In this document: positions 1,788 through 50,337 of the stretch, piece after piece
Position numbering within the stretch: the first letter of the stretch is position 1
Layout: each line of letters begins with the position of its first letter
Source: Eucommia ulmoides
Lineage: Eukaryota > Streptophyta > Magnoliopsida > Garryales > Eucommiaceae
DNA length: 64,000 nt
NCBI GenBank assembly: GCA_016647705.1
Contig: CM028339.1
Location: 22,917,803 to 22,981,802, forward strand
Reading direction: 5' to 3'
Translations under genes and position numbers: made by a program
Notes under the pieces: model-generated
Database searches by the model: none
What the model was told of the DNA's origin: nothing
The model's input: the letters and a program-made list of their open reading frames with translations, nothing else

Positions 1788-3290
1788 ATGATAACAACAC
1801 CGCAAGATCCAACCTCTGTAATCGCTGCTATCAAACGGTGCACGTCCGTCCAGCACCTGAAAGCCGTGCAAGCTCATCTGCTCCGGTCCGGTCGACTCCA
1901 AGACACATGCGCCGGCGCACTGATCGAGTCCACCGCCGTCAAACTCCGCGGCCACTTGCCCTACGCCCATTCCATCTTCTCTTCTATCCACAACCCTAAC
2001 CTCTTCACCTGGAACACACTCATCAGAGGCTACTCTCTCAGCGATTCCCCCCTTAAATCCATATCGCTATACAAAGAAATGCTTCGCTCCGACGTTTCTC
2101 CGAACTCCTTCACGTTTGGATTCCTCCTCAAGGCATGCGGTAGATTGACGCGACTCGACGAAGCCGAAACGCTCCACCCGCAGATCCTGAGACGAGGTTT
2201 GGATTTCGAAACCGTGGTTCTCAACGGGCTGATGAAATCGTACGCGGATCACCATCGTGTTGACTCCGCACAAAACCTGTTCGATGAAATGCCCCGCCGA
2301 GACGTTGCCTCATGGAGTCTGATGATTTCTGGGTATTCAAAAAATGGACGTCCATTGGATGCATTAGATTTGTTCATGGAAATGCATGGGCAAAATGTGG
2401 GCACGGATGAGTTCACATTGGCTAGTGTTGTTGGGGTTTGTGCTCAATTGGGTGCCCTAGATTTGGGCAAATGGGTTCATGCCTACATAGAAAAAGAACA
2501 CATCAAGATTGATGTTGTTTTGTGTACAAATCTCATCGAAATGTACTCGAAATGTGGTAGTCTAGAGAACGCCCTTGGCGTATTCAACCGAATGCCTTAC
2601 AGAGATGTAATGGCGTGGTCCGCGATGATTGGAGGGTATGCCATACACGGGCATGGCAAAAAAGCCCTAAACTTGTTCTATGAAATGAAGAGAGCAAATG
2701 TGAGCCCTAACGACGTTACTTTCACTTGTGTGTTGACCGCTTGTAGCCACTCGGGCTTGATCGACGAGGGCTGTCGGTGCTTCGACAGTATGCAATTCGA
2801 GTACGGAATCAAGGCCCGAATCGAGCATTACGGTTGTATGGTCGACCTCTTTTGTCGGGCAGGGCTCATGGGGCGGGCTCACGACTTCATCGTGGCAATG
2901 CCGCTCCAGCCCAATGCAGTGCTCTGGCGAACTTTGCTAACCGCGTGCACGCGTCATGGGAAATTGGGAGAGCTCACGGGCTTGAAATTACTCAAGAGCG
3001 AGGCCCTTGGGGGAGAGGATTATGTGCTCGTGTCGAATGTCTACGCTTCGCTTGAAAAGTGGTCGAGCGTGAGCAGGGTTCGAGACCTGATGAAGGAGAA
3101 CAACGTGAGGAAAGAGAGAGGTTGGAGTTCTATAGAGGTGGATTTCGTCGTGCACCGGTTCGTGATGGGGGATGAATCGCATCCACGGACTGAAGAAATC
3201 TATTGGGTGATCGATGAAATGTGGCGAAAGTTGAAACAAGATGGGATTGTAGAGATTACTACTGATGTGTTGTTGCATGATATAGACTAA
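1788..3290 (+). CDS. PLS-class pentatricopeptide repeat protein ending in E/E+ motifs, no DYW domain
   Basis: An intronless 500-residue ORF. It carries alternating PPR motifs: the NLFTWNTLIRGY motif near residues 71-82, DVASWSLMISGY near 172-183, DVVLCTNLIEMYSKCG near 242-257, DVMAWSAMIGGY near 273-284 and NDVTFTCVLTACSHSG near 308-323. The E motif follows (AVLWRTLLTACTRHG, 377-391), then an E+ segment (GWSSIEV...GDESHP, 445-466). The protein stops at VLLHDID, exactly where a DYW deaminase domain would normally start. In the family, such proteins bind organellar RNA sequence-specifically and often direct C-to-U editing, borrowing a DYW domain in trans. Organelle targeting is expected from the family; the N-terminus shows no strong transit-peptide bias. 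The ATG at 1788 is the first Met of this frame and allows a full first motif. The transcript would run alone; the nearest gene is over 50 kb away. Confidence 0.9.
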   Translation: MITTPQDPTSVIAAIKRCTSVQHLKAVQAHLLRSGRLQDTCAGALIESTAVKLRGHLPYAHSIFSSIHNPNLFTWNTLIRGYSLSDSPLKSISLYKEMLRSDVSPNSFTFGFLLKACGRLTRLDEAETLHPQILRRGLDFETVVLNGLMKSYADHHRVDSAQNLFDEMPRRDVASWSLMISGYSKNGRPLDALDLFMEMHGQNVGTDEFTLASVVGVCAQLGALDLGKWVHAYIEKEHIKIDVVLCTNLIEMYSKCGSLENALGVFNRMPYRDVMAWSAMIGGYAIHGHGKKALNLFYEMKRANVSPNDVTFTCVLTACSHSGLIDEGCRCFDSMQFEYGIKARIEHYGCMVDLFCRAGLMGRAHDFIVAMPLQPNAVLWRTLLTACTRHGKLGELTGLKLLKSEALGGEDYVLVSNVYASLEKWSSVSRVRDLMKENNVRKERGWSSIEVDFVVHRFVMGDESHPRTEEIYWVIDEMWRKLKQDGIVEITTDVLLHDID

Positions 3291-28613: not shown

Positions 28614-29435
28614 TGATAATAACCAACAAGTACCATGAAAGGATCCGTTGCATGTTCTAGTTGGACCTATTACTAGGGCAAGATCCAAGAAGATCAAAGA
28701 AGCACTGAATGGGCTAGTTCAAGATATTTGAGTTGAGTCCTAAATAATGATCAAGGCCTAGTTCATGTCATCAAGGCAAGCGAATAGGCTTAGACGTGAA
28801 CTTAAATGGGCCTAAGAATGAGAGCCACAAAATTTTTAGCTTATTTATTTTATTAATTAGTCTTTTAGTTTTAATTTAGGTAATTTATTTGATGATTTAT
28901 AAGGCATGATTGTCAAATAGTCTCTTCCTTTTTAAACTAGAAGTGTAAAGCAAGTTATGAAACTTCCTTATTTTTTTGTTTTGTCTTCTAGTACGAGACA
29001 CTAGGGTTTTCCTTTATTTTAATTGTGGCCCCACTGTCCACATGCACTATTCACAGCTAGGTTTTTCTCATATTCCTTGGACGCCTATTTAAAGAGGTGG
29101 TGTAAGAATGAAACATTACTTTTGATGAATATAATTGTGAGAGTTTTCTCTTAAGTTCTTCAAAGAACTTTTCCTGAACTTTCAAGAATTTCTTGTGGCA
29201 TTCAAACTCTATACCTTTGGTTCGTGATTCACTTATAATCAGTGGGTCAAGGTTTATTATTTTATACATTTGGTTCGTGTTTTATTCATAAACGATTGGG
29301 TCAAGGTAATCTACCAAACTTTTTTGTATTTTTGTATTCTTCCTTTTTCGTTTGTAAATATGAATTTAGTTCGATCCTCGTGAAGAAACTCTAAATTAGT
29401 TTCGGGTCTCACTAATCCTTAATAGGTTCGCATCA
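28614..29435 (+). repeat. 5' LTR of the outer Gypsy element
   Basis: It starts TGATAATAACCAACAAG and ends ...GGTTCGCATCA. It aligns end to end with 44029-44859 with many substitutions, sharing cctattactarggcaagatc, gagacactagggttttc and ttcgtgattcacttataat. Confidence 0.85.
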
Positions 29436-30822: not shown

Positions 30823-31122
30823 CATTATGTAGACACGGCATTTTGACCACCTCGCAAAAAATTATACTTTATTTTATAGTTACCTTTATTTTATTTTTCT
30901 ATTTATTTTGTTTTGATTGTACCGTATTTATGCGGTTTAACACTGCTAAATTAAGTTTTATTAATCTCTTAAGTAAATTAAATATTAGTAATTGATTTTT
31001 ATTTTTTTGATTTTGTAGATTTTTCGAAGTAGAATAAAAACGCGTTAGTTCGGAACAAAATGGATAAGAAACAGACGAGAACGAGAGAGGCCTGGACCGA
31101 ACGGGGGTGGGGGGTGCACAAA

Positions 31123-31278
31123 GGTCGCACGTGCGACCAAAAACTGGTCGCATGTGCGGCCAGCTTAAAGCTGGCCGCACATGCGGCCAGCAAGGGAGGG
31201 GCAGGGACCTTTTGGGTGCACCAAATTTTGGTGCACCCAAAAGGAGGTGGGTGCACCAAATTTCGGTGCACCCACCTC
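31123..31278 (+). promoter_or_regulatory. palindrome cluster upstream of the LTR TATA box
   Basis: Consecutive inverted repeats: GGTCGCACGTGCGACC (31123-31138, perfect), 31144-31163 (CTGGTCGCATGTGCGGCCAG), 31171-31190 (CTGGCCGCACATGCGGCCAG), 31208-31244 (arms with GGGTGCACC) and 31244-31278 (arms GAGGTGGGTGCACC / GGTGCACCCACCTC). The 3' LTR has the same set minus one 27-bp unit. They could be factor-binding palindromes or RNA hairpins; the sequence does not say which. Confidence 0.85.
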
Positions 31279-31332
31279 TTTTTTTTTAACTTTTTCATAC
31301 TTTGTGCGGTTTTTTTTTTCGGCAGATTTTCT

Positions 31333-31365
31333 GAGCCTTCATTCCTATAAATAGAATGAAGGCTC
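31333..31365 (+). promoter_or_regulatory. LTR promoter: TATA box in the loop of a perfect 12-bp inverted repeat
   Basis: Arm GAGCCTTCATTC (31333-31344), TATAAATA (31346-31353), arm GAATGAAGGCTC (31354-31365). The copy in the 3' LTR (39010-39042) is identical. Transcription would be expected to start about 25-30 bp downstream of the TATA box, near 31375-31385. Confidence 0.75.
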
Positions 31366-31708
31366 ACAACACCGAGGAGGGTGATTTTTTTGGAGGAGAG
31401 GAATTTTTGGGGAAGAAATTTTTTAAAGAGGAATTTTTGTAAGGGAGAGGTGAAATCTGGAGAGAAATTTTGAAGAAAATAATATTATTTTCATTTTATT
31501 GTAATTTTGAAGAAGAAAAATCTCCAAGAAGGTGGTAAATTTTCATCTGTTGTAAATCTTACTCTTATTTTTAAATAAGTTGTTATTATACTATTTTTTT
31601 TTTGTAAATTAGATTTTTTTTTTCTTCCTTTATTAGTTATTTATTTATTTATTTATTACTTTTTATTTTCTTTTTATTTTTATTTATTTTTTATTTTTTT
31701 GAGTAAGT

Positions 31709-32800
31709 AAAACGAGGCGGAAAATTCCCAACCTTCAATTTGAACGGTCTAAATTTAGAAGGGTATTACTCCCCTCGATGCGTGTGTGCGGGTGTTTTAT
31801 TTAATTTGTATTAAATATAATGTGCTAACAATACGAGGTGAAAAATTTTCAACCTTCAATTTGAACGGTCTAAATTTAGAAGGGAATTACTCCCCTCGAT
31901 GCGTGTTTGCGGGTGTTTTATTTAATTTGTATTAAATATAATGTGCTAACAATACGAGGTGAAAAATTCCCAACCTTCAATTTGAACGGTCTAAATTTAG
32001 AAGGGAATTACTCCCCTCGATGCGTGTGTGCGGGTGTTTTATTTAATTTGTATTAAATATAATGTGCTAACAATACGAGGTGAAAAATTCCCAACCTTCA
32101 ATTTGAACGGTCTAAATTTAGAAGGGAATTACTCCCCTCGATGCGTGTGAGCGGGTGTTTTATTTAATTTGTATTAAATATAATGTGCTAACAATACGAG
32201 GTGAAAAATTCCCAACCTTCAATTTGAACGGTCTAAATTTAGAAGGGAATTACTCCCCTCGATGCGTGTGTGTGGGTGTTTTATTTAATTTGTATTAAAT
32301 ATAATGTGCTAACAATACGAGGTGGAAAATTCCCAACCTTCAATTTGAACGGTCTAAATTTAGAAGAGAATTACTCCCCTCGATGCGTGTGTGCGGGTGT
32401 TTTATTTAATTTCTATTAAATATAATGTGCTAACAATACGAGGTGAAAAATTTCCAACCTTCCATTTGAACGGTTTAAATTTAGAAGGGAATTACTCCCC
32501 TCGATGTGTGCGTGCGTGTGTGAGCATGTGTTTCTTTAACTCGTATTAAATATAATGTGCTAACAATATGAGGTGGAAAATTCCCAACCTTCCATTTGAA
32601 CGGTTTAAATTTAGAAGAGAATTATTCTCCTCAATGTGTGAGTGTGTGCGTGCGTGTGTTTCTTTAACTTGTATTAAATATAATGTGTTAACAAGATGAG
32701 GTGAAAAATTCACAGCCTTCCATCAGAACGGTCTAGGTTTAGAAGTGAGATCACTTCCCTCAATATGTGTGTATGTGTATATGTGTATATAAGGAGGATT
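31709..32800 (+). repeat. 121-bp tandem repeats in the 5' LTR (nine units)
   Basis: Units start acgaggtgaaaaattcccaac and contain ttcaatttgaacggtctaaa and tactcccctcgatgcgtgtg. The first seven are very similar; the last two are diverged, with extended GT runs. The 3' LTR array (39389-40340) has eight units. Confidence 0.95.
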
Positions 32801-33201
32801 TAAAAATAAAATAAAAACATTCGGATTTAAATTCTAATTGGACTTAATCGGATAAGGTACCGTCTTTGGACGGGCGTCTTGGGGTGCTTGACACCTTCCC
32901 CGAGCGTAACTGACCCCCGAACTCTTTAAACGAATCTCTGGTTAGATCATGTTATTTTTGGAGTCAAATTTTACTTAAGCCATTTTTTTTAAATTATTTT
33001 CAAAAAAGAAAAATATGGTGACCTAGCACATCATTTAAACTCAATGCTAGGTGACGACTCCTTTTTCTAAAACAGGCTTAAGTATATTTTAATGAGAAAA
33101 TCAACGTTTTTAAAAATCCTTCTCGTTTTACCAGCGCCAAGCATATATAAACATATATCTATATTTTTTTGATTTTCTCTGGAAAATCGGGCGCATTCAG
33201 C

Positions 33202-33219
33202 TGGCAACTCCACTGGGGA
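33202..33219 (+). other. putative primer-binding site of the TR-GAG element
   Basis: TGGCAACTCCACTGGGGA lies 2 bp inside the 5' LTR end and starts with TGG, complementary to a tRNA CCA end. I could not assign the tRNA from memory. Confidence 0.6.
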
Positions 33220-33862
33220 TCGGCTGAGGGTCGAGCCCAATATGTTTGAATAAGTCCAACTAATCTAAAGTCCGAATGTTAAATTTTATTTTATTTTTTC
33301 CCTCAATTCAGTAAATAAGTTGTGATTTTTTTTTTATTTTTTTATTTTTTATTTTTATTTTTTATATATCATTTATTTTTTATTTTATATATATATATAT
33401 ATTTTCCTTATTTCCTCTCAGGCCCGTATATCGTTGTAAATCCTCTGACAAAAACAAAACTGTCTTATATCCATATTATCCCCTCAGGATTCTATGATAC
33501 AAGACGAGAAAGGGGTTTTTTGTACTTGATGGATTTATGACGTCTGGGGAAGTCCTAAAAAAAAAAAAAAAAGAGCACACCAAACAAGTTCAAAGTTTTC
33601 AATATCGATAGGGAACGACAAAAAAAATAATAATAATAATAAAAAAAAAAAAATTATTTTAATTAGTCGTTATCGAAATTGAAATCTTCGAATTAGAAAG
33701 GGCTTTAAGGCCACCTAAGACCCACGTGAACTAAAAAAATGATTTTTTTTTGTAGGTGAAAAATAAAAGGACAAGACAAAGAAAATTGGTCCCAGAAAAG
33801 CAAATCCAGTTCCCCCCTTTCGAAGTCCGATCTTTACACGCAGTCGAGCACAGACTCATTCC

Positions 33863-35731
33863 ATGATGACATCAGAAAGCAATCCCGAATCTCCCCGAAC
33901 GACCCAGATAGCTCAGATGCAGGAAACTATTAACAGGTTGATGGAAAGGATCAACGAACTTAGCCGACCTCAGGAGGTGCCTATTCCTCCATCCAACGGG
34001 ACTCCTGTGACTAAATCCCCAAATGGAAACCCTGTAAGTATCGGGATGGAGAACTCAGGGCCGAATCCGAACCACGTCGGCCCGAACTTTGTAGTACCGG
34101 TCTACTATGGACCTCAGATGGGCCCTCATCCTTTCGCCTATGGAGCTCCGACATATCCCATCCAGGGGCATGTTTATCAGGCCTCGCCAGAGGGCTCGGC
34201 CCCCGCCGCCCCGCAGATCCTCATTCACCCGGAGAAGGTCGTTGCTCCACCAAACAATTCAAATGATAGCCAACCGGTCCCGGCCATTGAAACTGAAAAC
34301 AAAGAAGAGAATGGCCCTCCACCGGCTTGGCTTCTGAAAATGGAAAAATTGGAGAAAACTATGGAAGAATGGCAAAAGGAGAAGCCGTCCAAGAAAGCGA
34401 CGTACAAGGAGTTGTCAGCACCACCCGGGATTGTGTACCCGAAAAATTTCGTGGTTCCAGAGTTCACAAAATATGATGGCACTGGCCCTCCAGAATGACA
34501 TGTCAGCATTTACAAAGAGGAGTTAGGAATTCATGCTCGGAACGAAGACCTTTGCCTAAAGATGTTTCGGAGATCGTTGAAAGGACCGGCTCTCAACTGG
34601 TACATGACCTTGGAGCTATCACAGATTAAAACATTTGAAGATCTGGTAGAGGCCTTCTGTGAGCAATATGTGTACAATAGGGATGCCGCGCCAGACCGCA
34701 ATACCCTCTACCAGATACTGAAAAATAAAGACGAAAGTTTCCGGAGGTATACTGCTCGTTGGAGGGAAGAGGCTGCCAAAGTTGTCCCTAAGCTGAGCGA
34801 GGAGGCTCAATTAGAGATATTCAAGTCAATTCAGTCACCTCCATTCTATCGAGATCTCTCAAGCATAGCAGTGGTTTCTTTCGGCGACGTGATCAAACAG
34901 GCCGAGGTGACGGAAGAAGGAATAAGGAGCGGAAAAATTGAAGGGGCCCAATCCAATCTGACGAAAAGGTCAGCCCCGCCAAAGATGAAAGAAAATGAAG
35001 TAGCTGTTGTCGTTTCCCCTCGGCAAACCCATTACCAGAACTACCCCCAAGCTTTTTGTCCCCAAAACTACCCGAACCAGAACAACCAATATCACAACTA
35101 CCCTCCTCAAAATCGCCAAAACCAAAATTATCCTCAAAACCAACCCTATTCCCAAAGCCGCCCCCGCTATTACCAAAATGTACCTCCCCCTTATCAAAAC
35201 CACATTCCCCAATATTACCCTCAAGCCTACCCAACACCCTCTTACCATACCTATCAACCACACCCGAACACCCCACCTCAAATTCCTAACCGCACTCCAA
35301 GGTCAGGAACCCAATACCACCAAGACCTTTTACCTCATGCTACTGGGAGAAATTTCCAGAACGACAAGAAAGAGCTACAAGACCTTCCGGTCTCGATCAC
35401 CGAGTTGTACCGGAATTGTTTGAAGCAAGAGATGCTGACACCCCTTCCATTCTACGAAGTTAAACCTGGGAGTAAAGCAGCTTCTTCAAATGCTTTCTGT
35501 GAATACCACTCAGGAACCAGAGGACATGCGACTGAGCAATGCTTTCAGCTGAAAGACAAAATTCAGGAGTTTATACGGACAGGAGCCATCACGTTTCCTA
35601 AAAAAAAAAAATCTGAGGCCGGTACGCCAAACTGTCAGCAGAATCCGTTGCCTGAGTATGCACCTTCGAGGGGTGGTGAAGTCAATCTTTACCAAAATAT
35701 TATTGGAGATGGGAGCGAGTCACGTGCCTAA
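33863..35731 (+). pseudogene. retrotransposon gag with one premature stop
   Basis: One continuous reading frame of about 622 codons, broken only by a TGA at 34496-34498. The N-terminal part (about 1-211) has a short coiled coil (MQETINRLMERINELSR) and a Pro-rich stretch. After the stop comes the retrotransposon gag core (FRRSLKGPALNWY, IKTFEDLVEAFCEQYV, ESFRRYTARWREEAAKV). A Gln/Asn/Pro/Tyr-rich stretch follows (about 35030-35300), then a zinc-binding variant CEYHSGTRGHATEQC (C-x2-H-x5-H-x4-C, about 35500-35544), and the frame ends at NLYQNIIGDGSESRA. It matches gag of plant Ty3/gypsy elements in order and length. Gag packages element RNA in cytoplasmic particles. The single stop may be recent or read through. 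Confidence 0.9.
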
Positions 35732-37590
35732 GGCTCAATTTGAAAAATCTAAAGACTACAAAACTGTTTTTTTGTTTGCTTTAAATTTGCGAGGTGTTTT
35801 GATAAAATTGAAAAATCTTTGCGTACTCACCTTTCCATCCCGTTGGTCTTTTGGATGGAAAAGGATTTGCTCTGTAATGACTTTTAAAATTTCAATAATG
35901 CAATACTGTTTATTCAAAACTGTGGTCTAATGTTTGAATCTTACTATTTCAGGTGCCCAAAATTGCCTGCATATGTTGTACGTGATGTGACTGAGTGAAG
36001 ATGTGAATGTGTGATTTCAATACAAAGTTAGACCACGATTCAATGGGACTATAATCAAAGGAAGATTATGTTTATCCAAACGATGGTGAAATCTGAAAAG
36101 GCCCGTAACCAAATTCGTCGGCGATTCCAGAAGTACCGGGGGGTTCAAAAGTCAAGATTGGTATCCATTGTCCTTACGATGCTTTGATATATTGTTGCAA
36201 GCTAATCAAACTATCTTTGGTGGTACTTTAGTGATTGATGAAACTAGGTGTAAATATCCCGATTTGCCTATTGTTTGAGTTACTCAATGGTAAAAAAGAA
36301 ATACAATCATCTCAGGCCAATGATCCCAATGAAGAAACTTTCAAATGTTGCAAGAAGATCTCAATTTCCAAATAAAATCAAGTTCATTGATAAGCTCGAT
36401 GTCCCTAAATCATTGTAAGTTCGATATATATAAAAAAAAAAAAAGGAGAAAAAAAAGAAAAAAAAAGAAAAAGAAAAAAAGAATAAAATAATAAGAAAAA
36501 AAGAAAAAAGAAAAAAAAAAAGAGAAAAAATAAATAAAAGAAATGGAAAAACGAAAAGTGGGATAACCGAATAAGAAGTATTGGTATAAATGTGGAAGAG
36601 ATTTGAAGAGGAAATAAAGATGATAGATAGATTTGTTCATATTTTTCACCTCGGTCCAAATTAGCGGCAAATGATATTTTTTGGAATCAGAACTTGATGG
36701 ATTTGAATGGAATTAGAATTTGAGAAAAGAAACATTGGTCGTGATCTGAAAATGTATTAGAATCATATTCCTCTACATTCTTGACTCAAGATCTCACAGA
36801 AAATCATATCGGGTATTGAAGGTACTCATTTTAGTAATTTTCGACATTTACCCATTTTTGGACTAAATCAGTTTTGCAGGACTTGAGAAAACACAGAGCA
36901 TGCAGGAGTATTAGAACCCCAAGCATTGAAGCACCTACTAATTTGAAAAGACAAGAATCCAGTCGAGCAAGCCAAGGAGATCTCGATGAGGTATGTTGGG
37001 CCTTCCCCTGAGTCGAAGGGAACTAAAAAAAAAATTGTCGCATCACCCTGAAGCATGTCGAACTCTCAGTTGAAAAGCGAGACTTCTAAATTCAAAAATG
37101 GAAAAATCTCCCGATACTGTCCCGTGACCCGAGAAAGTCAAGCGCCATCAAATGAGAGATTGCGACGGAAAAGGGGGGGACGGAATTGCTAGTCGTCAAG
37201 AGTGACAAGTTTTTCAAACTAAATTTTCGTGTTGCATGTGTTTTTTGTCCAATTACAGGGTTTTCAAAGGGCAGGGAAGCATGGATTTCTCTCTCACAAA
37301 GACTTCTTACCTTCCGGTTCAAATTAGAAACTTTTATTACTAAAAGTTCGAAAGCTCTAAATGAGCGTCCAGGTATGCGTTTTGCCTTGAAAAGGGCGAA
37401 AAGTGAACTACGCTAAACTTGATCCTCGGCATAATACTAAGGTACGCAGGCAATCTATAAATGTTCGGTCATCTGAGAGTTCGGCTGGGGCACATTTATA
37501 TCTTTGCTCTCTCATTCTGGCTCAGTCACAAGTTGGGGCATATTTTATACTCTTGAACTTTCTTTAAGCCCCTGGCCAAGAGGGCTGGGG
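35732..37590. other. non-coding interior of the TR-GAG element
   Basis: This is the place where pol would be expected. No reverse transcriptase, integrase or protease motif is present on either strand. It holds a purine-rich low-complexity tract (36430-36545) and short open frames without recognisable content. Confidence 0.75.
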
Positions 37591-37591
37591 C

Positions 37592-38400
37592 ATGAATAAT
37601 TTTTATTACTCTAAGCGATCCTCTAAACGGACACGTGTTCATCATGAGTATCGTCATGAGTCATTTTTTTATTACTCTAAACGATTCTCTAAATGGACAC
37701 ATGTTCGTCATGAGTACCGTCATGAATCATTTTATTACTCTAAACGATCCTCTAAACGGACACATGTTCGTCATGAGTACCGTCATAAATTATTTTATTA
37801 CTCTAAACGATTATCTTAACAGACGCTTGTTCGTCATGAGTATCATCACGAGTTAAATTTTTTTATCACTCTAAACGATCCTCTAAACGGACATTTGTTT
37901 ATCATGAACGTCGTCATGAGTCATTTTTTTTATTACTCTAAACAATCCTCTAAACGGACATATGTTCGTCATGAGTACCATCATGAATCATTTTATTACT
38001 CTAAACGATCCTCTAAACAGACACGCGTTTGTCATGAGTCATTTTTTATTATTCTAAACGATCCTCTAAACAGACACTTGTTCGTCATGAGTATCGTCGT
38101 AAGTCATCATTTTATTACTCTAAACGATCCTCTAAACGGACACATGTTCATCATGAGTACCGTCATGAATTATTTTATTACTCTAAAATAATCATCTTAA
38201 CAGACACTGGTTCGTCATGAGTATCATCACGAGTTAATTTTTTATCACTCTAAATGATCTTCTAAACGGACATTTGTTTGTCATGAATATCGTCATGAAT
38301 CATTCTTTTATTTCTCTAAACGGACACTTGTTCGTCGTGACTCTTCTTTTATTACTCTAAACGTACACTTGTTTGTCATGAGTATCGTCATGAGTCATTT
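37592..38400 (+). repeat. about 60-bp minisatellite before the 3' LTR
   Basis: About 13 units built on attactctaaacgatcctct, aaacggacacatgttcgtca and tgagtaccgtcatgaatcat. Some units are truncated (near 38300-38400). The unit length is not always a multiple of three, so the open frames here are not conserved coding sequence. Confidence 0.9.
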
Positions 38401-38519
38401 TACTTTATTTGTTCTACTACCAAAAAATACACTAAAAAAAAAAAAAAAAAAAAAAAAAAATGGGACAATCAAAATGACGTGGTCTTTTATCTTTGCCAAG
38501 CAAGTGGAACTTGCATGAC

Positions 38520-38534
38520 AAAGAGGGGGGCAGC
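38520..38534 (+). other. polypurine tract of the TR-GAG element
   Basis: aaagaggggggcagc sits directly before the 3' LTR (TGTAGACACGG at 38535), the expected position for plus-strand priming. Confidence 0.8.
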
Positions 38535-40757
38535 TGTAGACACGGCATTTTGACCGCCTCGCAAAAAATTATACTTTATATAGTTACCTTTATTTTATTT
38601 TTCTATTTATTTTGTTTTGATTGTACCGTATTTATGCGGTTTAATACTGCTAAATTAAGTTTTATTAATCTCTTAAGTAAATTAAATATTAGTAATTGAT
38701 TTTTATTTTTTTGGTTTTGTAGATTTTTCGAAGTGGAATAAAAACGCGTTAATTCGGAACAAAATGGACAAGAAACAGACGAGAACGAGAGAGGCCTGGA
38801 CTGCACGGGGGTGGGGGGGTGCACAAAGGTCGCACGTGCGACCAAAAACTGGCCGCATGTGCGGCCAGCAAGGGAGGGGCAAGGACCTTTTGGGTGCACC
38901 AAATTTTGGTGCACCCAAAAGGAGGTGGGTGCACCAAATTTCGGTGCACCCACCTCTTTTTTTTTAACTTTTTCATACTTTGTGCATTTTTTTTTTCGGC
39001 AGGTTTTCTGAGCCTTCATTCCTATAAATAGAATGAAGGCTCACAACACAGAAGAGGGTGATTTTTTTAGAGGAGAAGAATTTTTTAGGAAGAAATTTTT
39101 TAGAGAGGAATTTTTGTAAGGGAGAGGTGAAATCTGGAGAGAAATATTGAAGAAAATAATATTATTTTTATTTTATTGTAATTTTGAAGAAGAAAAATCT
39201 CCAAGAAGGTGGTAAATTTTCATCTGTTGTAAATCTTACTCTTATTTTTAAATAAGTTGTTATTATACTAATTTTTTTTTTGTAAATTAGATTTTTTTTT
39301 CCTTCCTTTATTATTTATTTATTTATTTATTTATTACTTTTTATTTTCTTTTTATTTTTATTTATTTTTTATTTTTTTGAGTAAGTAAAACGAGGCGGAA
39401 AATTCCCAACCTTCAATTTGAACGGTCTAAATTTAGAAGGGAATTACTCCCCTCGATGCGTGTGTGCGGGTGTTTTATTTAATTTTTATTAAATATAATG
39501 TGCTAACAATACGAGGTGAAAAATTTCCAACCTTCAATTTGAACGGTCTAAATTTAGAAGGGAATTACTCCCTTCGATGCGTGTGTGCGGGTGTTTTATT
39601 TAATTTGTATTAAATATAATGTGCTAACAATACGAGGTGGAAAATTCTCAACCTTCAATTTGAACGGTCTAAATTTAGAAGGGAATTACTCCCCTCGATG
39701 CGTGTGAGCGGGTGTTTTATTTAATTTGTATTAAATATAATGTGCTAACAATACGAGGTGAAAAATTCCCAACCTTCAATTTGAACGATCTAAATTTAGA
39801 AGGGAATTACTCCCCTCGATGCGTGTGTGTGGGTGTTTTATTTAATTTGTATTAAATATAATGTGCTAACAATACGAGGTGGAAAATTCCCAACCTTCAA
39901 TTTGAACGGTCTAAATTTAGAAGGGAATTACTCCCCTCGATGCGTGTGTGCGGGTGTTTTATTTAATTTATATTAAATATAATGTGCTAACAATACGAGG
40001 TGGAAAATTTTCAACCTTCCATTTGAACGGTTTAAATTTAGAAGGGAATTACTCCCCTCGATGTGTGCGTGCGTGTGTGAGCGTGTGTTTCTTTAACTCG
40101 TATTAAATATAATGTGCTAACAATATGAGGTGGAAAATTCCCAACCTTCCATTTGAACGGTTTAAATTTAGAAGGGAATTATTCTCCTCAATGTGTAAGT
40201 GTGTGCGTGCGTGTGTTTCTTTAACTTGTGTTAAATATAATGTGTTAACAAGATGAGGTGGAAAATTCCCAGCCTTCCATCAGAACGGTCTAGGTTTAGA
40301 AGGGAGATCACTTCCCTCAATGTGTGTGTATGTGTATATGTGTATATAAGGAGGATTTAAAAATAAAATAAAAACATTCGAATTTAAATTCTAATTGGAC
40401 TTAATCGGATAAGGTACCGTCTTTGGACGGGCGTCTTGGGGTGCTTGACACCTTCCCCGAGCGTAACTGACCCCCGAACTCTTTAAACGAATATCTGGTT
40501 AGACCATGTTATTTTTGGAGTCAAATTTTACTTAAGCCATTTTTTTTAAATTATTTTCAAAAAAGAAAAATATGGTGACCTAGCACATCATTTAAACCCA
40601 ATGCTAGGTGGCGACTCCTTTTTCTAAAACAGGCTTAAGTATATTTTAATGAGAAAATCGACGTTTTTAAAAACCCTTCTCGTTTTACCAGCGCCAAGCA
40701 TATATAAACATATATCTATATTTTTTTGGTTTTCTCTGGAAAATCGGGGCGCGTTCA
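38535..40757 (+). repeat. 3' LTR of the TR-GAG element
   Basis: 2223 bp. It is collinear with the 5' LTR but lacks one 121-bp unit and one 27-bp palindrome unit, with few other differences. It ends GCGCGTTCA and is followed by the CATTA duplication. Confidence 0.95.
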
Positions 40758-40762
40758 CATTA

Positions 40763-41279: not shown

Positions 41280-44233
41280 GAAACAAGTGAGCTTTTACGC
41301 TAAGACAAGTGATATCAAGAGTGTTTTTTATGTGAACCAGCCTATATTTGTACTACTGTACAAAAAGACATGTTTTAGTACTAACAAACTTGACCAATCT
41401 TTGCCTAGTGTTGTAGTTTCTTTGTCGCAAGAATTTGAGGATGTGTTCCCTAACGATATGCCTAGTGGATTGCCACCTATTCGAGGCGTAGAACATCAAA
41501 TTGATTTTGTGTTGGGTGCAACAATTCCTAACCAACCAGCTTATAGGAGTAATCCAAATGAGACGAATGAACTTTAAAGGCAAGTAGAAGAGTTGCTGGC
41601 CAAAGGACATGTAAGAGAAAGCATAAGTCCGTGCACAGTACCGACACTACTTGTGCCTAAGAAGAATGGAATTTGGAGTATGTGTGTTGATTGCCGAGCT
41701 ATTAACAACATTACAGTAAAGTATCGATATCTCATTCCTAGACTACATAACATGTTATATGAGTTGCATGGGTCAAATATTTTCACTAAAATTTATTTGA
41801 AAAATGGGTATCACCAAATTAGAATGAAAGAGGGTAATGAATGGAAAACTACCTTTAAAACTAAATATTGATTGTATGAGTGGTTGGTAATGTCTTTTGG
41901 GCTAACTAATGAACCAAGTACATTCATGAGGTTAATGAATCATGCATTGTGTGCGTTTATAGGAAAGTTTGTCGTGGTCTATTTTGATGATATTTTGGTG
42001 TATAGTAAGAGCTTAGATGAGGATATTGATCACTTGCATTGTGTGCTTGATATTCTGAGAAAAAAAAAAACTATATGCAAATTTAAATAAATGTTCATTT
42101 TGCTTGGCAAAGTTGTGTTTCTTGGCTATATTGTTAACCCGAAAGAGGTTGTGGTGGATGAAAAAAAGATGAAGGCTATCAAAGAATTTTCCACACCTAA
42201 GTTAACCACGGAGGTAAGAAGTTTTCATGGTTTAGCTAGTTTTTATCATCGATTTGTTAAAGATTTTAGTACACTAGCTGCACCACTCATTGAAATTGTA
42301 AAAAAAAAAAAAATCGTGAATTTTAAAATGGGGTAGTGAAAAAGAGCGTGCATTTAATGAGATTAAAGAAAGGTTATGTGGTGCTTTTTTATTAGCATTA
42401 CCTGATTTTTCTAAAACTTTTGAGATTGAGTGTGATACTTATGCTATTTTGATGCAGGAAAAGCGGTCAATAGCATACTTTAGCGAAAATCTAAATGGTG
42501 TAGTGTTGAATTACCCGACATTTGATAAGGAGTTTTATGCATTGGTGAAAGCACTAGAGACTTGGCAACATTACCTGTGGCCTAGAGAGTTTTTCATACA
42601 TACCAACCATGAGTCCTTGAAGAACATGAAGGGACAAGGTAAGTTGAATAGAAGGCATTCCAAGTGGATGGAATTCATTGTATCCTTCCCTTATGTAATC
42701 AAATATAAACAAAGGAAAATATTATGGTTGATGCATTATCCAGAAGGTACGCCATTGTCTCTACTTTAAATGCAAAATTATTGGGGTTTGACTATGTTAA
42801 AGAGTTGCATGCTAATGATAATAACTTTGCTAATGTGTATGGGGCATGTAAGAAAACGATGTTTGGTAAGTTCTATAGAATGGATAGGCATTTGTTTAGA
42901 GAGAATAGAATTTGTGTGCCCAATAGTTCTATGCATGAGTTCCTTATGCGTGAAGCACGTGGGGGTGATTTGATGAGTCATTTTGGTGTGAGGAAGACCT
43001 TAGCTGTATTGCATGAACATTTATTTTTTTGCCAAAGATGAAGCATGATGTAGAAAGAGTTTGTGCTAGATGTGTTACATATGGACAGGCCAAATCTAGA
43101 ATCTTACCACATGGATTATACATTCCATTACCCGTACCTCGTGCACCTTGGGTGGATATTTCCATGGACTTTGTTTTAGGCCTACCAAGGTTAAGGAAAT
43201 GTATGAATTCAGTTTTTGTTGTTGTTGATAGATTTTCTTAGATGACACATTTCATATATTGTAATAAAATCAATGATGCAACCCACATTGCTGATTTATT
43301 CTTTAGAGAGATAGTACGGCTCCATGGTGTTCCGAGGAGTATCATGTCTGATTGTGATGTTAAGTTCCTTAGCTATTTTTGAAAACTCTTGTGGGGAAAG
43401 TTGGGAACTAAATTATTGTTTTTAATTACTTGTCACCCCCAAACGGATGGACAAACTAAGGTAGTGAATCCAACTTTATCTACTTTGTTGCGTACTATAG
43501 TTCAAAAGAACTTGAAAAATTGGGAGGATTGTTTGTCATTCATTGAATTTGCTTATAATCAGAGTGTTCACTCTACCACTGGTTTTTCACCATTTGAGAT
43601 TGTTTATGGTTTCAATCCACTAACTCTTTTGGATTTGCTGCCTTTGTCAATTGATGAGAGGGCTAGTTTGGATGGACAAAAGAAGGTTGAGATGCTAAAG
43701 AAACTCCACGAAAGTGTGCGACAACACATAGAGAATAAAAATGAGTAATATGCGACCAAAGCCAACAAGGGTTGTAGATGAGTCATCTTTGAATCGGGTG
43801 ATTGGATTTGGGTGCATATGAGGAAATAACGATTTCCATTCCGTAGGTGATCCAAACTACATCCTAGAGGGGATAGCCCATTCAAGTTCTTGAGATGATC
43901 AATGATAATACGTATAAGTTGGATCTTACAAGTGAGTATAACGTTAGTGCAACATTTAACATTTCTAATCTTCCTTCATTTGATTTACATGAAGATTTGA
44001 GGTCGAATCCTTGTAAAGAGAAAGGGGATGATAAGAACCAACAAGCACTTTCAAAGAATCTGTTGCATCTTCCAATTGGGCCTATTACTAAGGCAAGATC
44101 TAAGAAGATCAAAAAATCACTCGATGGGTTAATTCAAGAGATTTGGGCTAAGTCTAAAATGGTGAAATCCAAATTAGGCCCAAATGACGATCAAGGTCTA
44201 GTTCATCTCATCAAGGCAAACGAATGGGCCTAA
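41280..44233 (+). pseudogene. outer Gypsy pol: reverse transcriptase, RNase H and integrase, broken
   Basis: In order: the pre-RT segment (EDVFPNDMPSGLPPIRGVEH), RT (41580-42090; [10 protein letters not shown], then [12 protein letters not shown] at 41980), the thumb and connection, RNase H (about 42350-42720), the integrase zinc-binding region (about 42880-43090), the integrase core ([15 protein letters not shown] near 43150; SDCDVKF near 43350; HPQTDGQTK near 43440), and a C-terminal segment (GPITKARSKK) that overlaps the 3' LTR. The first catalytic Asp of RT is Tyr ([11 protein letters not shown]), and the integrase Glu is Lys (GQTKVVNP for the usual GQTEVVN). At least six stops or frameshifts occur. 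No chromodomain was seen. It is inactive. Confidence 0.88.
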
Positions 44234-44859
44234 GCATGAGAGCCACGAAATTTTTAACTTATTTACCTTTATTTTTTAATTAGTCTTTTAATTTTAATTT
44301 AGGTAATTCATTTAATGATTTGTAGGGCATGATTGCCAAATAGTCTCTTCTTTTTTAAACTAAGAGTGTAAGGTAAGTTAGAAAGTTTTATTATTCTTTT
44401 GTTTTATCTTGTAGTGTGAGACACTAGGGTTTTCTTTTATTTTTTAATTGTGGCCAACACTGTTCATGTGCACTATTTACAGCTAGATTTTTCTTGTATT
44501 CCTTGGTCGCCTATTCAAAAAGGTGGTGTAAGGATAAAGCATTACTTTTAATGAATATAATTGTGAGGGTTTTCTCTTACGTTCTTCAGAGAACGTTTTC
44601 TAAACTTATCAAAAATTTCTTGTGGCATTCAAACTCTATACCTTTGATTCGTGATTCACTTATAATAATTGGGTCAATGTTTATTACTTTATACCTTTGG
44701 TTCGCGTTTTATTCATCAAAAATTGGGTCAAGGTAATCTACCAAACTTTTATGTATCTTCGTGTTCTTCCTTTTTCATTTATAAATCTGAATTTAGTTCG
44801 ATCATCGCGAAGAAACCCTAAATTGGTTTTGGATCTCACTAATCTTTGGTAAGGCATCA
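44029..44859 (+). repeat. 3' LTR of the outer Gypsy element
   Basis: It starts TGATAAGAACCAACAAGC and ends ...GGTAAGGCATCA. The end of pol (stop near 44231) reads about 200 bp into it, a known layout in this group. Confidence 0.85.
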
Positions 44860-45225: not shown

Positions 45226-46359
45226 GGTAACCAAATTGAAATAATAAGGGGTGTTTCAGATATTATTCAATTTATGGGGAGTCTCCTTGGTATAAGACCA
45301 ATGCACATGGAGTGTTGCTTTGATAAAACTAAATATCAAGTGCTAAAACTGAAAAATAATGAATTTGAAGTCTTGAAATTTAAGTATTGAATTGATTAGG
45401 TAATTTTCTTTGAAATAATTTCAATTCAAATAAATTTATGCTTTTTCAATTTTTGAATTTTTTTTCCTTACAAATTGCTCTCTTAAAAAATTCTATCCCA
45501 TCACCTTTTTTTTTTTTTTTTTGTTATTTCTCTCTCTAGAATTTTATTTGATATTTTTTATCTATATTTTTCAATAGTTATAATTTAGTTATACTTGTGT
45601 TAATAAAAATGTAATAGTTTCAACTGATAAGTCATGTGTAGATCATTTTGTTTTTGTGATTTATTTTTAAGTAATACTTAATAAATAAATAAAAAGTAAT
45701 TTAGGACAATTAACCACATCATATATCTACCATTACCCCTAAATGTCCAATCTCTCATCTTGATTAAATCCTTATATTTAACAGAGGATATATTTTAATT
45801 TTATCACTTGATGATGATATAAACTTATCACAACACGAATACTAAGGAACCTGGGTTAACTGCCAACTTGAGGTTAGTGGACCTCCTCCAGTTCATGTTA
45901 AACCCAATTAGTAGTTCATTGGAATTTTGGACCATGTGAATATTGCCTACAATAAATTGATTATAATATAGCCCACCAATCAGTTTAGATTCAAATCAAT
46001 CTTATAAGATGGATCTACAAAAATTAAGGAGAAACATGAATCATTTGAGGTTTAAAAGATAGTTTTACACACAATTTTAAATATAAAATTTTTAATTAAC
46101 TTATTCTCACATCGGAAGTTATCTGTCTCATATCATATAGGTATCCCAATTATACTTCCTAAGGTTTTTGCAGGTTCAATCAGATTTCTGAATGCGAAGA
46201 ATATTGTTGATTTTTGGGCAGCGTCATCAACCATTTACAAAAAAGAAAATTTGATTTTTTATATATATTGGAATTTTAATGTTTAATCCCCAGGTAGTAC
46301 ATAAAATTATCCATGCTTTCTTTTTAGATATTTTATTAACCTGGTTCTAATACTACTTA
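45226..46359. other. AT-rich intergenic DNA with a dispersed repeat
   Basis: No gene is seen. About 45315-45690 resembles 54505-54870: gataaaactaaa..., ttaagt.ttgaattgatta/catttgattaagt, ttacaaattgctctc/acaatttgatctctc. This is probably two old copies of one non-coding repeat. Confidence 0.5.
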
Positions 46360-49300
46360 CGCTACGTTTGGTACGCTGGAATGGAATAGAATGAATGTGA
46401 TATTGAAATGAATATGGTATTGGAATAGAATGATTATTATCATTCCTATATTTGATGACAAATAGGATTAAACATGGTATTGGAATGACCATTATCATTC
46501 CTACGTTTGGTTATAAAATACATTAAACATGGTATTGGATTCACCGATAAATAAAAATGAAACAATATTCTTAAATGTTTGAAAATTTTAGAACAACATT
46601 TTGGGAACATAATAGAATTATTTAGAGACACTAAATAAGGTCACCTGGATTATCCTTTAACCCAACAAACTAAAGGGCTTGGAAGTACTTTCATGTTTCT
46701 ATTTCTCTTTTTCTGTTCCCAAAAAAACTTATAACTAGAAAAAAAAAATGATTTGCTTATGTTCTGATTCCAATCTGAGAACAGAACAAAACAATTTTTT
46801 TCCTATTTTACTGATTATGTTCCAATAATTTTGTTAACAAATTCAAGATATAGAAACACCAAATCCCACTTATGCCTTACTTGTTTAATATTTTTGTTCT
46901 CATAAAATTGAGAATACAAATAAACATATGGGGGGAAAATTGTTTATTCCGAGTTTTATATCTATATTCCAGGTTTTCTTGGAACAAAAATAGAAATTTG
47001 GGAACAAAAACAGAAATCTGGGAATAAAAACAAAAACAGAAATTTGGAACAAAAGCAGAAATATGGGAACAAAAACATAAATATGTTCCCAAATTTATGT
47101 TTTTGTTTTTGTTCCCATATTTTTGTTTTTGTTCCCATATTTCTGTTTTTGTTCTCATATTTCTATTCCCATATTTCTGTTTTTATTTTGTTCCCAGATT
47201 TCTATTTTCGTTCCCAGATTTTTGCTTTTATTTTTGTTCCCAGATTTCGGTCCCATATTTCTGTTTTCGTTCCATGTTTTCTGGGAACAGAAACATGAAA
47301 GTAACACTACCATATTTTTGTTTCTGTTCTAAGAATTTTATTTTCTGTTGTGAAAAATACGAAAATAAAAGTATAGGTCTTTCTTCTTACACAACACCTC
47401 ATTTTATTTGGAATTAACTAATCCCATGAGTTATAGGATTAGTCATTACTTGAGAATGAGAATGAAAACCAATCCCACCAATCAAACATAGGAATAGAAT
47501 GGTCATTCCCAACTTCATTCCAATCACAAGATGAATCCCATGTATCAAACATGACCTTAGTGATTAATTTTGTATTTTGTGCACGTTCATTTCTAGAAGA
47601 CTATTTTGCCATTTTGCGTCTAATCATGTGCTTTAGAAAGGTTTTGGTTTTAGTAAGTTCGATTTATTTATTCACACACATCATTTATGTTTTCAAATTT
47701 GAAATCACTAATTCCCTCATTTCATATTTGTTGTTCTACGAAATTGTTGAAACATGCAAGTGTTGATTTTGAATACTCTTCGTACGTCTTAACTATTACT
47801 TAAGATAAAAGATGCAACATCATTTCACGTTCATTTCAGGTTTGATTTGTTGTATTATTGTGTTGTTTTACAAAAATTGTCAATTCAAAAAAGATACGCC
47901 AATTTGTCTTTTGTTTGATTCAGTTTTGATTTGCGATTTTGATCAGTGAAATGGGTAACAATAGTTTCGTGTTCATGTAATTTTTGGTTCGTTTTAATGT
48001 GTATTAATCAATTCTTAATTTTTTATTAGTTATAATGTTGTTGAATTTTTTAGATTCATTCGCAATGGATGTTTTTGTTTGATATCATCACAGTCAGCTT
48101 TGAATTTAAGATTGTTAACCTTGATAGTGAACATTCACAAATTAGAGATTGGATTATGATGTTAAATGTATTCTTATTAGAAAATTGACTTTTGATGTTA
48201 TATTTGTTCTTATTTGCTTTAATGTCCTTTTTAGATAGTTAACATTCAATTGACGGATATAACTGAATGTTCAATTGAATTATGCACCTGTGTTGCATGA
48301 TAATTTGAGATAGGTAATGACATGTGTAACTTTAATGTGCAAATTCTATAGATACACAATAAGGTCACGTTTGGCACATGAAATTTATCTTGGGATTAGA
48401 ATGAAGTTGGGAATTACCATTTTATTCCTACATTTGGTTAGTAGGATTGATTTTCATTCTCATTCCCAAGTAATGATTAATTTCACAACTCATGGGATTA
48501 GTCAATTCTAAATGAAATGAGGTATAAGGTAATCCTGAGATTACCTAAATCCAAATGAAATGAGGTATTAGGTAAGAAAAATTGTCTATATTTTTGTTTC
48601 CGTATTTTTCACAATAGAAAATAAAATTATGAAAACAGAAATAAAAATATGGTGGTGGTGTTTTCATATTTTTGTTCCTAGAAAACATAGAACGATAAAA
48701 GAAATATGGGAACGAAATTTGAGAACAAAAACAAAAATTTGGGAATAAAACAAAAACAGAAATCTGGGAACAAAAACAGAAATTTTGTTCCCATATTTCT
48801 GTTTTTGTTCCCATATTTCTGTTTTTGTTCCAAGAAACCTGAAACATAGATATAAAAATCGGAATAAACAATTTTTCTCTCATATGTTTATTTGTATTCT
48901 CAATTTTATGGTAACAGAAACACTAAACAAATGAGGCATAAGTGGTGTTTGATATATCTATCTTAAGTCTGTTAATAAAATGATTGAAATAGAATCAGTA
49001 AAATAGGAAAAAATTTGTTATGTTCTGTTCTCAGATTTTTATAACAAAATCCTGAAATCAAAATATAAGCAAATCATTTTTTTTTTTTTTTTCAGTTATA
49101 AGTTTTCTTTTTAACAGAAAAAAGGGAAACAAAAACACGAAAATACTTTCAATCTCTTTAGTTTGTCAGATTAAATGATAACCTAGGTGACATTTGTTTA
49201 GTATCTCTAAATAATTTTGTTATGTTCCCAAAATTTTGTTCTAAAATTTCCGAATATTTAGAAATATTGTTTCATTTTTATTTATCGATTATTCCAATAC

Positions 49301-49472
49301 TATTTCTAATGTATTTTGTAACCAAATATAGGAATGGTAATGGTAATTCCAATACCATGTTTAATCTTGTTTGTCACCAAACATAGAAATGATAATGGTC
49401 ATTCTATTCCAATACCACATTTATTTGAATACCACATTTATTCCATTTCATTCCAGCGTACCAAACGTAGCG
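46360..49472. mobile_element. 3.1-kb foldback element with about 1.1-1.2 kb inverted arms
   Basis: The left end CGCTACGTTTGGTACGCTGG is identical to the reverse complement of the right end. The inverted similarity continues, with substitutions and indels, along about 46360-47558 and 48360-49472; for example aaaccaatcccaccaatcaaac... and ggtattggaatgaccattatc recur inverted. The flanks are tta (left) and taa (right), so the target was T-A containing but no clean duplication is seen. The central 800 bp (47559-48359) has no recognisable protein. The terminal TTTGGT resembles PIF/Harbinger-type ends; assignment is tentative. Confidence 0.8.
46985..47285. repeat. nested inverted repeat of GGGAACAAAAACAGAAAT units in the left arm
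   Basis: Direct units gggaacaaaaacagaaatct (46985-47088) meet inverted units tatttctgtttttgttccca (47089-47285), centred near 47088. The right arm holds a shorter version (about 48690-48835). Confidence 0.85.
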
Positions 49473-50337
49473 TAAGTGTTAGGTGTTAAGATTGATTTAG
49501 GTTTTACATTTGATATGCTTATTCAAAAGTTAATTATACAGTGAGAGACGTTACATGTTGATACATAGTTTTTACTCAATTATTATAGATCTTGCAATAT
49601 CTTTAAAAATAGATGTAAGGCATGTTGCAGTGGCAGTGGATCTTATAAAGTGTTATTCAAATCATAGGGTGAATGGCATCACAAAGGTAGGTAAATTTAG
49701 TTTTAAATGCAAAAAAAATTATAAATCAAAGGTAGCACAGGAATGTTCTTAAAAAAAAAAAAAAAAAGGTTGCAATTGAAGGTCTGATGGACGATTGGAT
49801 AAAAAGAAAATATATGTTTCTATATATGGGATCTTGATAATAATCAATCATCCGGTGTTGCATTTTAGACTAATAAGAGTGATAAAATGAGCTCTAATGT
49901 TATTAAATCATGTTGTTTGATATCTTTCGTAATACGCCTTCTACACGCCCTATCGATATTGTCCATTTTTTCAAGAATGAGTAGGACTTGAGATCCCTTA
50001 CCACAATTTGTAAATGGATTGGCTCAAATATCATAGTAAGGGTGGTGTAGTGATTGTCATTTGGTCATAGAGTGGCTCTCCGATTTCACACGAGAGAAAG
50101 AATCGTAAAGAAATCAAAAGCAGTGCGGAGGGTTTTTGTCATCAGTATTGGTGAAGTTAATGATAATACTTGTTGAAGTAACATGTTAGAAGGGTCTGCA
50201 TAAACTTTGCAGGTCGATTTTTTGTTCTTAATTTTTAAGAAATTGGTGATTTCATTTTATACCTTAAGGATGTAGAAATTATATGTTCATCGGAATGGAA
50301 GGCAAACTCGTTATATATAAAAACTATATTACACAGT
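49473..50337. other. intergenic DNA upstream of the tRNA-Leu, no gene seen
   Basis: Mixed AT-rich sequence with short open frames only. No recognisable domain or element end was found. Confidence 0.5.

Follow-up and report, generated by a model that had tools for sequence, protein, structure and literature searches.

In a 64,000-nucleotide window of the Eucommia ulmoides genome (CM028339.1, 22917803-22981802; coordinates below are those of the window unless another locus is named), we found that the long terminal repeat (LTR) element at 30828-40757 is very likely a TR-GAG copy of a Tat-type Ty3/gypsy family, which would be mobilised in trans and which carries a pol-less core on a backbone apparently exchanged with an autonomous helper. 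The element has paired LTRs with a target site duplication (TSD), a primer binding site (PBS), a polypurine tract (PPT) and GAG as its only domain, and it belongs to an amplified pol-less class. The exact CATTA duplication, the PBS, the PPT and the long gag frame with a single TGA had all been reported in an initial annotation made from the sequence alone, and each was recovered (Table 1).

The window copy encodes Gag only. The gag frame (33863-35731) is interrupted by a single in-frame TGA at 34496-34498, and the portion beyond it matches Pfam Retrotrans_gag (E 2.7e-10), which sets the copy apart from large retrotransposon derivatives (LARDs), defined by having no internal coding domain. Apart from the two gag parts, no frame of at least 150 residues lies inside the element, and ten other frames of at least 90 residues wholly inside it matched no Pfam family. 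Two shorter frames of 84-86 residues lie in an A-rich stretch (36405-36670), and one frame crosses the left end of the element. When six pieces of the partner pol described below were compared with the whole element by tblastn, they matched only a short relic of the start of the reverse transcriptase (RT) frame at 35930-36102, in two segments (35930-36007 and 36013-36102; 46-47% over 26 and 30 residues). Apart from this relic, the initial statement that no pol exists anywhere holds. Together with the spacer that precedes it, the relic spans 35769-36100, at 67% identity to the partner, and the adjoining 36100-36680 could not be clearly matched to partner sequence. Searched against PDB sequences, the C-terminal part of gag gave no match at E 0.1, and none of the 8 examined among 150 scored Retrotrans_gag matches in the genome resembles the gag of the window copy. 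The insertion lies within an older Ty3-type element with LTRs of its own (28614-29420 and 44029-44847, 81% identical); the pol matches at 41653-42712 and 43434-43610, in broken frames, belong to this host and not to the window copy.

The same pol-less structure recurs across the 946.67-Mb genome. A 1,821-b query taken from behind gag yielded 2,339 first-look candidates, 40 of which were scored; these 40, with the window copy among them, all span essentially the whole query, and the other 39 are 93-98% identical to the window copy. From these 39 we sampled 20 sisters, namely the 14 best and 6 from the 93-94% group, and all 20 have one and the same gag/core joint and core. One of them (L026) is a chimera, excluded from distances and group counts. 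In 16 of the 19 non-chimeric sisters, leader, gag, core, tail and PPT are all in view; L014 has lost the N part of gag, and neither a PPT nor a 3' LTR is visible in the stretch examined; L015 and L021 contain N runs. Protease, RT and integrase pieces of the partner found no match at E 1e-5 in the 19 non-chimeric sisters. A 34-b core word, allowing up to 3 mismatches, has 178 sites in the genome, compared with 0 for the reversed control. The initial proposal of a gag-only, TR-GAG-type class that amplified without pol and needs borrowed enzymes was therefore upheld, 19 of 19 sisters sharing the core.

TSDs of 5 b match in all 12 pol-less copies that have both ends in view. Among the 17 pol-less copies that could be dated, six of them on U3 alone, LTR divergence (K) ranges from 0.0025 to 0.0259, and an uninterrupted gag is present in 9 of the 17 copies with a complete gag. 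Six loci are absent from some of these and later counts: L014, L015, L021 and L029 (with N runs in the last three), L009 (5' U3 partial) and L037 (U3 split). The pol-less class has thus been amplified recently, and copies with intact gag exist. The window copy itself does not deserve the description "young" given to it initially: its K of 0.0259 is the highest of the 17, compared with 0.0025-0.0224 in the other 16, and its TGA, once taken as a sign of recent activity, shows decay, the recent activity being seen in other copies. At one locus (G000:C7:35412320-35427872), three gag matches lie 7.16-7.18 kb apart and may be pol-less elements arranged head to tail by LTR recombination.

A protein search with the C-terminal part of gag (409 residues) gave 102 scored places of 7,903 candidates, which fall into two classes: 81 reach the end of the query (pol-less type), whereas 21 cover only residues 1-396/397 (partner type) and often lie in long open frames of up to 1,841 residues, the longest of which includes an N run. 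Among the core sites listed, the core word occurs within 2.6 kb of 67 of the 81 pol-less-type matches but of none of the 21 partner-type matches. Five of the 21 partner-type loci were examined, each as two stretches. As far as in view, they carry the same LTRs, LTR ends, leader, PBS, gag, 3' tail, 63-b repeats and PPT; the segment around the PPT (38450-38534) is present in all 5 at 92-97%, and gag is shared at 95-96% protein identity. Both ends could be seen in five autonomous copies, and the 5-b TSDs of all 5 match. An autonomous partner with matching LTR ends, PBS and PPT, for which the initial annotation had proposed to look, is therefore present in this genome.

Pol is in view in two partner copies, L029-L030 and L031. 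Both carry an IDNGSALN motif, which we take to be protease, and, each where the piece was scanned, RVT_1 (E 6.8e-32 and 6.8e-29), RT_RNaseH, RVT_3 and Integrase_H2C2, with rve in L029. In both, RVT_3 stands after RT_RNaseH and before Integrase_H2C2/rve. According to passages of PMC6317226, angiosperm Tat elements are marked by an additional RNase H placed between the usual one and integrase, and by this domain order the partner appears to be a Tat-type Ty3/gypsy element. L031 (5050-6660) also has a G-patch domain ahead of RT (E 7.2e-10), a domain mentioned for plant gypsy elements in a passage of PMC9289625. One frame of L029 ends at 6624 and the next starts at 6800; L031 has a single frame through gag, pro and RT. 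Ogre elements have a PBS for tRNA-Arg, gag-pro and RT-INT frames split by an intron-like spacer, and an extra frame upstream of gag. Such an extra frame was not found in the partner, the leader of which is ~0.66-0.73 kb and contains no frame of at least 150 residues (L031). A pyrimidine-rich TTTCAG before the start of the RT frame, like the 3' splice site of an Ogre-type intron, is kept both in the window copy (35769-36100) and in L029 (6636-6971).

A word from the partner RT has 424 sites in the genome (control 0) and lies at the expected distance from 12 of the 14 partner-type gag matches on the contigs of the RT-word listing. Pol-bearing copies thus probably outnumber pol-less ones, although 424 compared with 178 gives no exact copy ratio, because the coding RT word may be better kept than the non-coding core word. 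The initial annotation had held that its reading would fall if most of the family carried pol and this copy had simply lost it by deletion. Pol-bearing copies do look commoner, but the window copy shows no loss of its own: its pol-less core is shared and inherited.

Only the core separates the two classes into clean groups. Mean pairwise differences among pol-less copies, among autonomous copies (means that rest on 6 or 10 pairs) and between the classes were, in this order, 0.101, 0.127 and 0.110 in U3; 0.030, 0.061 and 0.049 in the 3' part of the LTR; 0.060, 0.080 and 0.070 in the leader; 0.026, 0.030 and 0.028 in the N part of gag; 0.026, 0.019 and 0.030 in the C part of gag; 0.018, 0.016 and 0.321 in the core (36570-37100); and 0.054, 0.046 and 0.058 in the tail (37178-37580). 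The classes are thus 32.1% apart in the core, compared with 2.8-11% for the LTR, leader, gag and tail; nowhere but in the core can the pol-less class be told from its partner. In a tree of the core, the classes form two clades with support 100/100. In contrast, the autonomous copies are scattered in the LTR plus leader tree (17 pol-less, 3 autonomous copies), where placing them in one clade is rejected (approximately unbiased test, p = 4e-47) and the class labels cluster no more than shuffled ones do. For the gag tree (17 pol-less, 4 autonomous), the same constraint gave p = 0.03, and in the tail tree (20 pol-less, 5 autonomous) two changes of class are forced by well-supported branches.

The edges of the core provide further evidence of exchange. 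In the window copy, identity to the partner drops at ~35655-35690 and resumes at ~37100-37117. L024, standing for the L023-L028 group, remains 22-32% different from the window copy, and hence from partner-like sequence, until ~37277; these two right ends of the core in pol-less subgroups suggest at least two exchange events. L026 is a chimera of an autonomous and a pol-less element, with protease and part of RT ahead of the pol-less core. Together with L039 it matches autonomous L029 at 99.0% identity along 4,319 b that begin in gag, cross protease and spacer and end in RT. Its downstream part is 98% identical to pol-less L024/L028 from within gag onward; read by eye, the sequences share only a few bases at the joint. 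The 3' parts of its two LTRs are 99.3% alike, and its 5' LTR is rearranged, the first part being seemingly inverted.

Several points weigh against exchange with the partner as the general explanation. The tail tree does not reject a single autonomous clade (p = 0.17). Moreover, labels cluster by class in both the gag and the tail tree, where 7 and 11 (gag) and 1 and 2 (tail) of 500 shuffles gave values as low; exchange in these parts therefore looks rarer than in the LTRs. The autonomous sequence comes from 5 copies, 3 of them in the LTR plus leader tree, and the sisters were picked among the best matches to the window copy. For L026, the rearranged 5' LTR leaves the TSD uncheckable and makes an origin at the DNA level possible.

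We considered whether the likeness of gag between the classes could reflect selection on the protein alone, without recombination. In its favour, dN/dS is 0.27 among pol-less copies, 0.20 among autonomous copies and 0.20 between the classes. However, silent divergence in gag is 0.060 within the pol-less class, 0.066 within the autonomous class and only 0.079 between them, compared with a K of 0.44-0.45 in the nearby core, and the untranslated LTR, leader and tail are alike as well. Because silent sites and untranslated DNA lie beyond the reach of protein-level selection, exchange between the classes is required, and we rejected selection alone, a very improbable reading that both the silent sites and the non-coding parts contradict. 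Selection on Gag would fit the 9 of 17 copies in which gag is open and the dN/dS values of 0.27-0.30, but part of this signal may have come with imported partner sequence. Independent deletions from autonomous elements were likewise rejected. The relic of the RT frame start does show that pol was ancestrally lost by deletion, but the 19 non-chimeric copies share one gag/core joint and a core that is 1.5-1.8% apart among them and 32% from the partner, a shared structure that contradicts separate losses and leaves them a practically negligible probability.

A rather more serious possibility, which we nevertheless regard as doubtful, is that a second, divergent autonomous lineage supplied the core, which was placed on the backbone once and fairly recently; the 32% would then date the split of the lineages and not the loss of pol. 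The near uniformity of the core among pol-less copies fits such a recent founder, and pol-bearing elements with the pol-less core could not be targeted directly by our searches. Even so, the interleaving of LTR and leader would still call for later exchange with the partner. Two results from the listed sites also speak against this source, although these lists are partial and the RT word could be missing from a divergent lineage: no listed core site lies within 2.6 kb of the 21 partner-type gag matches, and no core site among the 45 listed on contigs C1-C8 has one of the 100 listed RT-word sites (of 424) closer than 13 kb. As for the route of exchange between the classes, ectopic gene conversion or crossing over in chromosomes, instead of template switching during reverse transcription, would be in keeping with the LTR recombination suggested by the three evenly spaced gag matches on C7 and with the rearranged LTR of L026. 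We consider it distinctly unlikely, however, since exchanged tracts are found in young insertions with intact TSDs, and the 3' LTR parts of L026 are far closer to each other than the 3-6% by which copies differ there on average.

The most likely route of exchange would therefore appear to be co-packaging followed by template switching, and mobilisation in trans is suggested by the cis sequences that the two classes share together with their recombination. In the mechanism that we propose, pol-less RNA would be packaged with partner RNA in particles built of nearly identical Gag proteins, and the enzymes of the partner would copy and integrate it. Template switching inside these particles would shift the pol-less core onto new LTR, gag and tail backbones, and a backbone renewed in this way could keep the pol-less element compatible with its helper.

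The LTR K of the window copy (0.0229) corresponds to 0.88 Myr (million years) at 1.3e-8 and to 1.77 Myr at 6.5e-9 substitutions per site per year; on U3 and the 3' segments of the LTR only, its K of 0.0259 corresponds to 1.57 Myr at 8.25e-9, the rate used in a passage of PMC7603500. Assuming neutrality and a single origin, the K of 0.438 between the cores of the two classes corresponds to 26.5 Myr at 8.25e-9 and 16.8 Myr at 1.3e-8. Pol-less copies scarcely differ from one another in the core, so their present burst is recent. We tentatively suggest, as a less than even prospect that we think rather unlikely, that the core (K 0.44) is 17-27 Myr old and has been kept by recombination onto helper backbones, with the Gag-only message feeding shared particles, which would make the element a partial mutualist of the autonomous one instead of a pure parasite. 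A divergent second autonomous lineage, if it were the source of the core, would cancel this old age.

The coordinates of the element are collected in Table 1. An LTR pair of the size initially annotated is present, but "near-identical" was too strong a wording: identity between the two is 97.75% across 2,220 aligned bases, with 39 transitions and 11 transversions (Kimura two-parameter distance (K2P) 0.0229), and the remaining differences are one 121-b tandem unit, one indel of 27 b and five short ones of 1-3 b. Both start with TGTAGACACGG and finish with TTCA. In copies with the leader in view, the PBS reads TGGCGACTCC[A/G]CTGGGGA with scattered changes, one of them in the window copy. In the genome, 7 sites carry the complement of the PBS in the setting of a tRNA 3' end, with both variants represented; 3 of the 7 were examined, and ARAGORN assigned all three to tRNA-Arg with anticodon ACG.

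Table 1. Features of the element and its flanks in the window
Feature	Position	Strand	Remark
Target site duplication, left	30823..30827	.	CATTA
5' LTR	30828..33199	+	2,372 b; 121-b tandem array at 31712-32772
Primer binding site	33202..33219	+	tRNA-Arg(ACG); one mismatch in window copy
Untranslated leader	33220..33862	+	common with autonomous partner (84-87% identity, 4 partner copies having leader in view)
gag, N-terminal part	33863..34498	+	closed by TGA at 34496-34498 in window copy
gag, C-terminal part	34499..35731	+	Retrotrans_gag domain; final stretch specific to pol-less class
Pol-less core	35656..37100	+	occupies place of protease-RT-RNaseH-integrase
Relic of partner's gag-pro/RT spacer and RT frame start	35769..36100	+	K2P 0.45
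3' tail	37101..37590	+	common with partner, ~95-97%
Tandem repeats, ~63-66 b	37591..38410	+	also in partner
Polypurine tract	38520..38530	+	read by eye
3' LTR	38535..40757	+	2,223 b
Target site duplication, right	40758..40762	.	CATTA

Elsewhere in the window, an inverted repeat of ~700 b (46355-47029 and 48783-49477, 83%) encloses further inverted arms (47173-47562 and 48357-48783); the whole resembles a fold-back element or one like a miniature inverted-repeat transposable element (MITE), or two copies in opposite orientation. At 1788-3290, an open frame of 500 residues reads by eye like a pentatricopeptide-repeat protein.

The window element joins an already published kind of partnership between autonomous and non-autonomous elements, of which Dasheng/RIRE2 of rice and SNRE of soybean are examples. 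Dasheng is said to be without coding sequence; by contrast, the window element keeps a gag nearly identical to that of its partner. In BARE-2 of barley the situation is the reverse, this element being defective in gag. BARE-2, which is named in a passage of PMC6022998, resembles the window element in being a non-autonomous LTR element that relies on a close relative. Dasheng is similar in being the non-autonomous partner of an autonomous gypsy family for which chimeras between the two are reported (passages of PMC5473765), RIRE2 being placed under Tat/Retand in a passage of PMC6317226. SNRE, judged by the title of Du et al. 2010 and by passages of PMC3701649 and PMC10025401, is a similar partnership with 'LTR swapping'; possible differences are that in our family the exchange seems to extend to leader, gag and 3' tail and that the core has two different right breakpoints. 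TR-GAG elements, in the definition that passages of PMC6022998 and PMC10025401 give, resemble ours in having an LTR pair and gag as sole coding domain and in being multicopy and non-autonomous. At 9.9 kb, however, the window element is longer than the TR-GAG third quartile in PMC10025401 (8,054 b), and in our case the partner has been identified and exchange with it measured. Other papers describe intra-family recombination in Onsen (PMC5668417), homogenised regulatory regions in non-autonomous pararetroviruses (PMC5491270) and recent Retand elements without some domains (PMC11963269).

In families of this kind, similarity of LTRs or of gag cannot tell autonomous from non-autonomous copies. 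Because one genome holds the two classes with their boundaries and also a direct chimera of them, it becomes testable whether a pol-less element survives through continued recombination with its helper and whether the gag that it has kept is of use.

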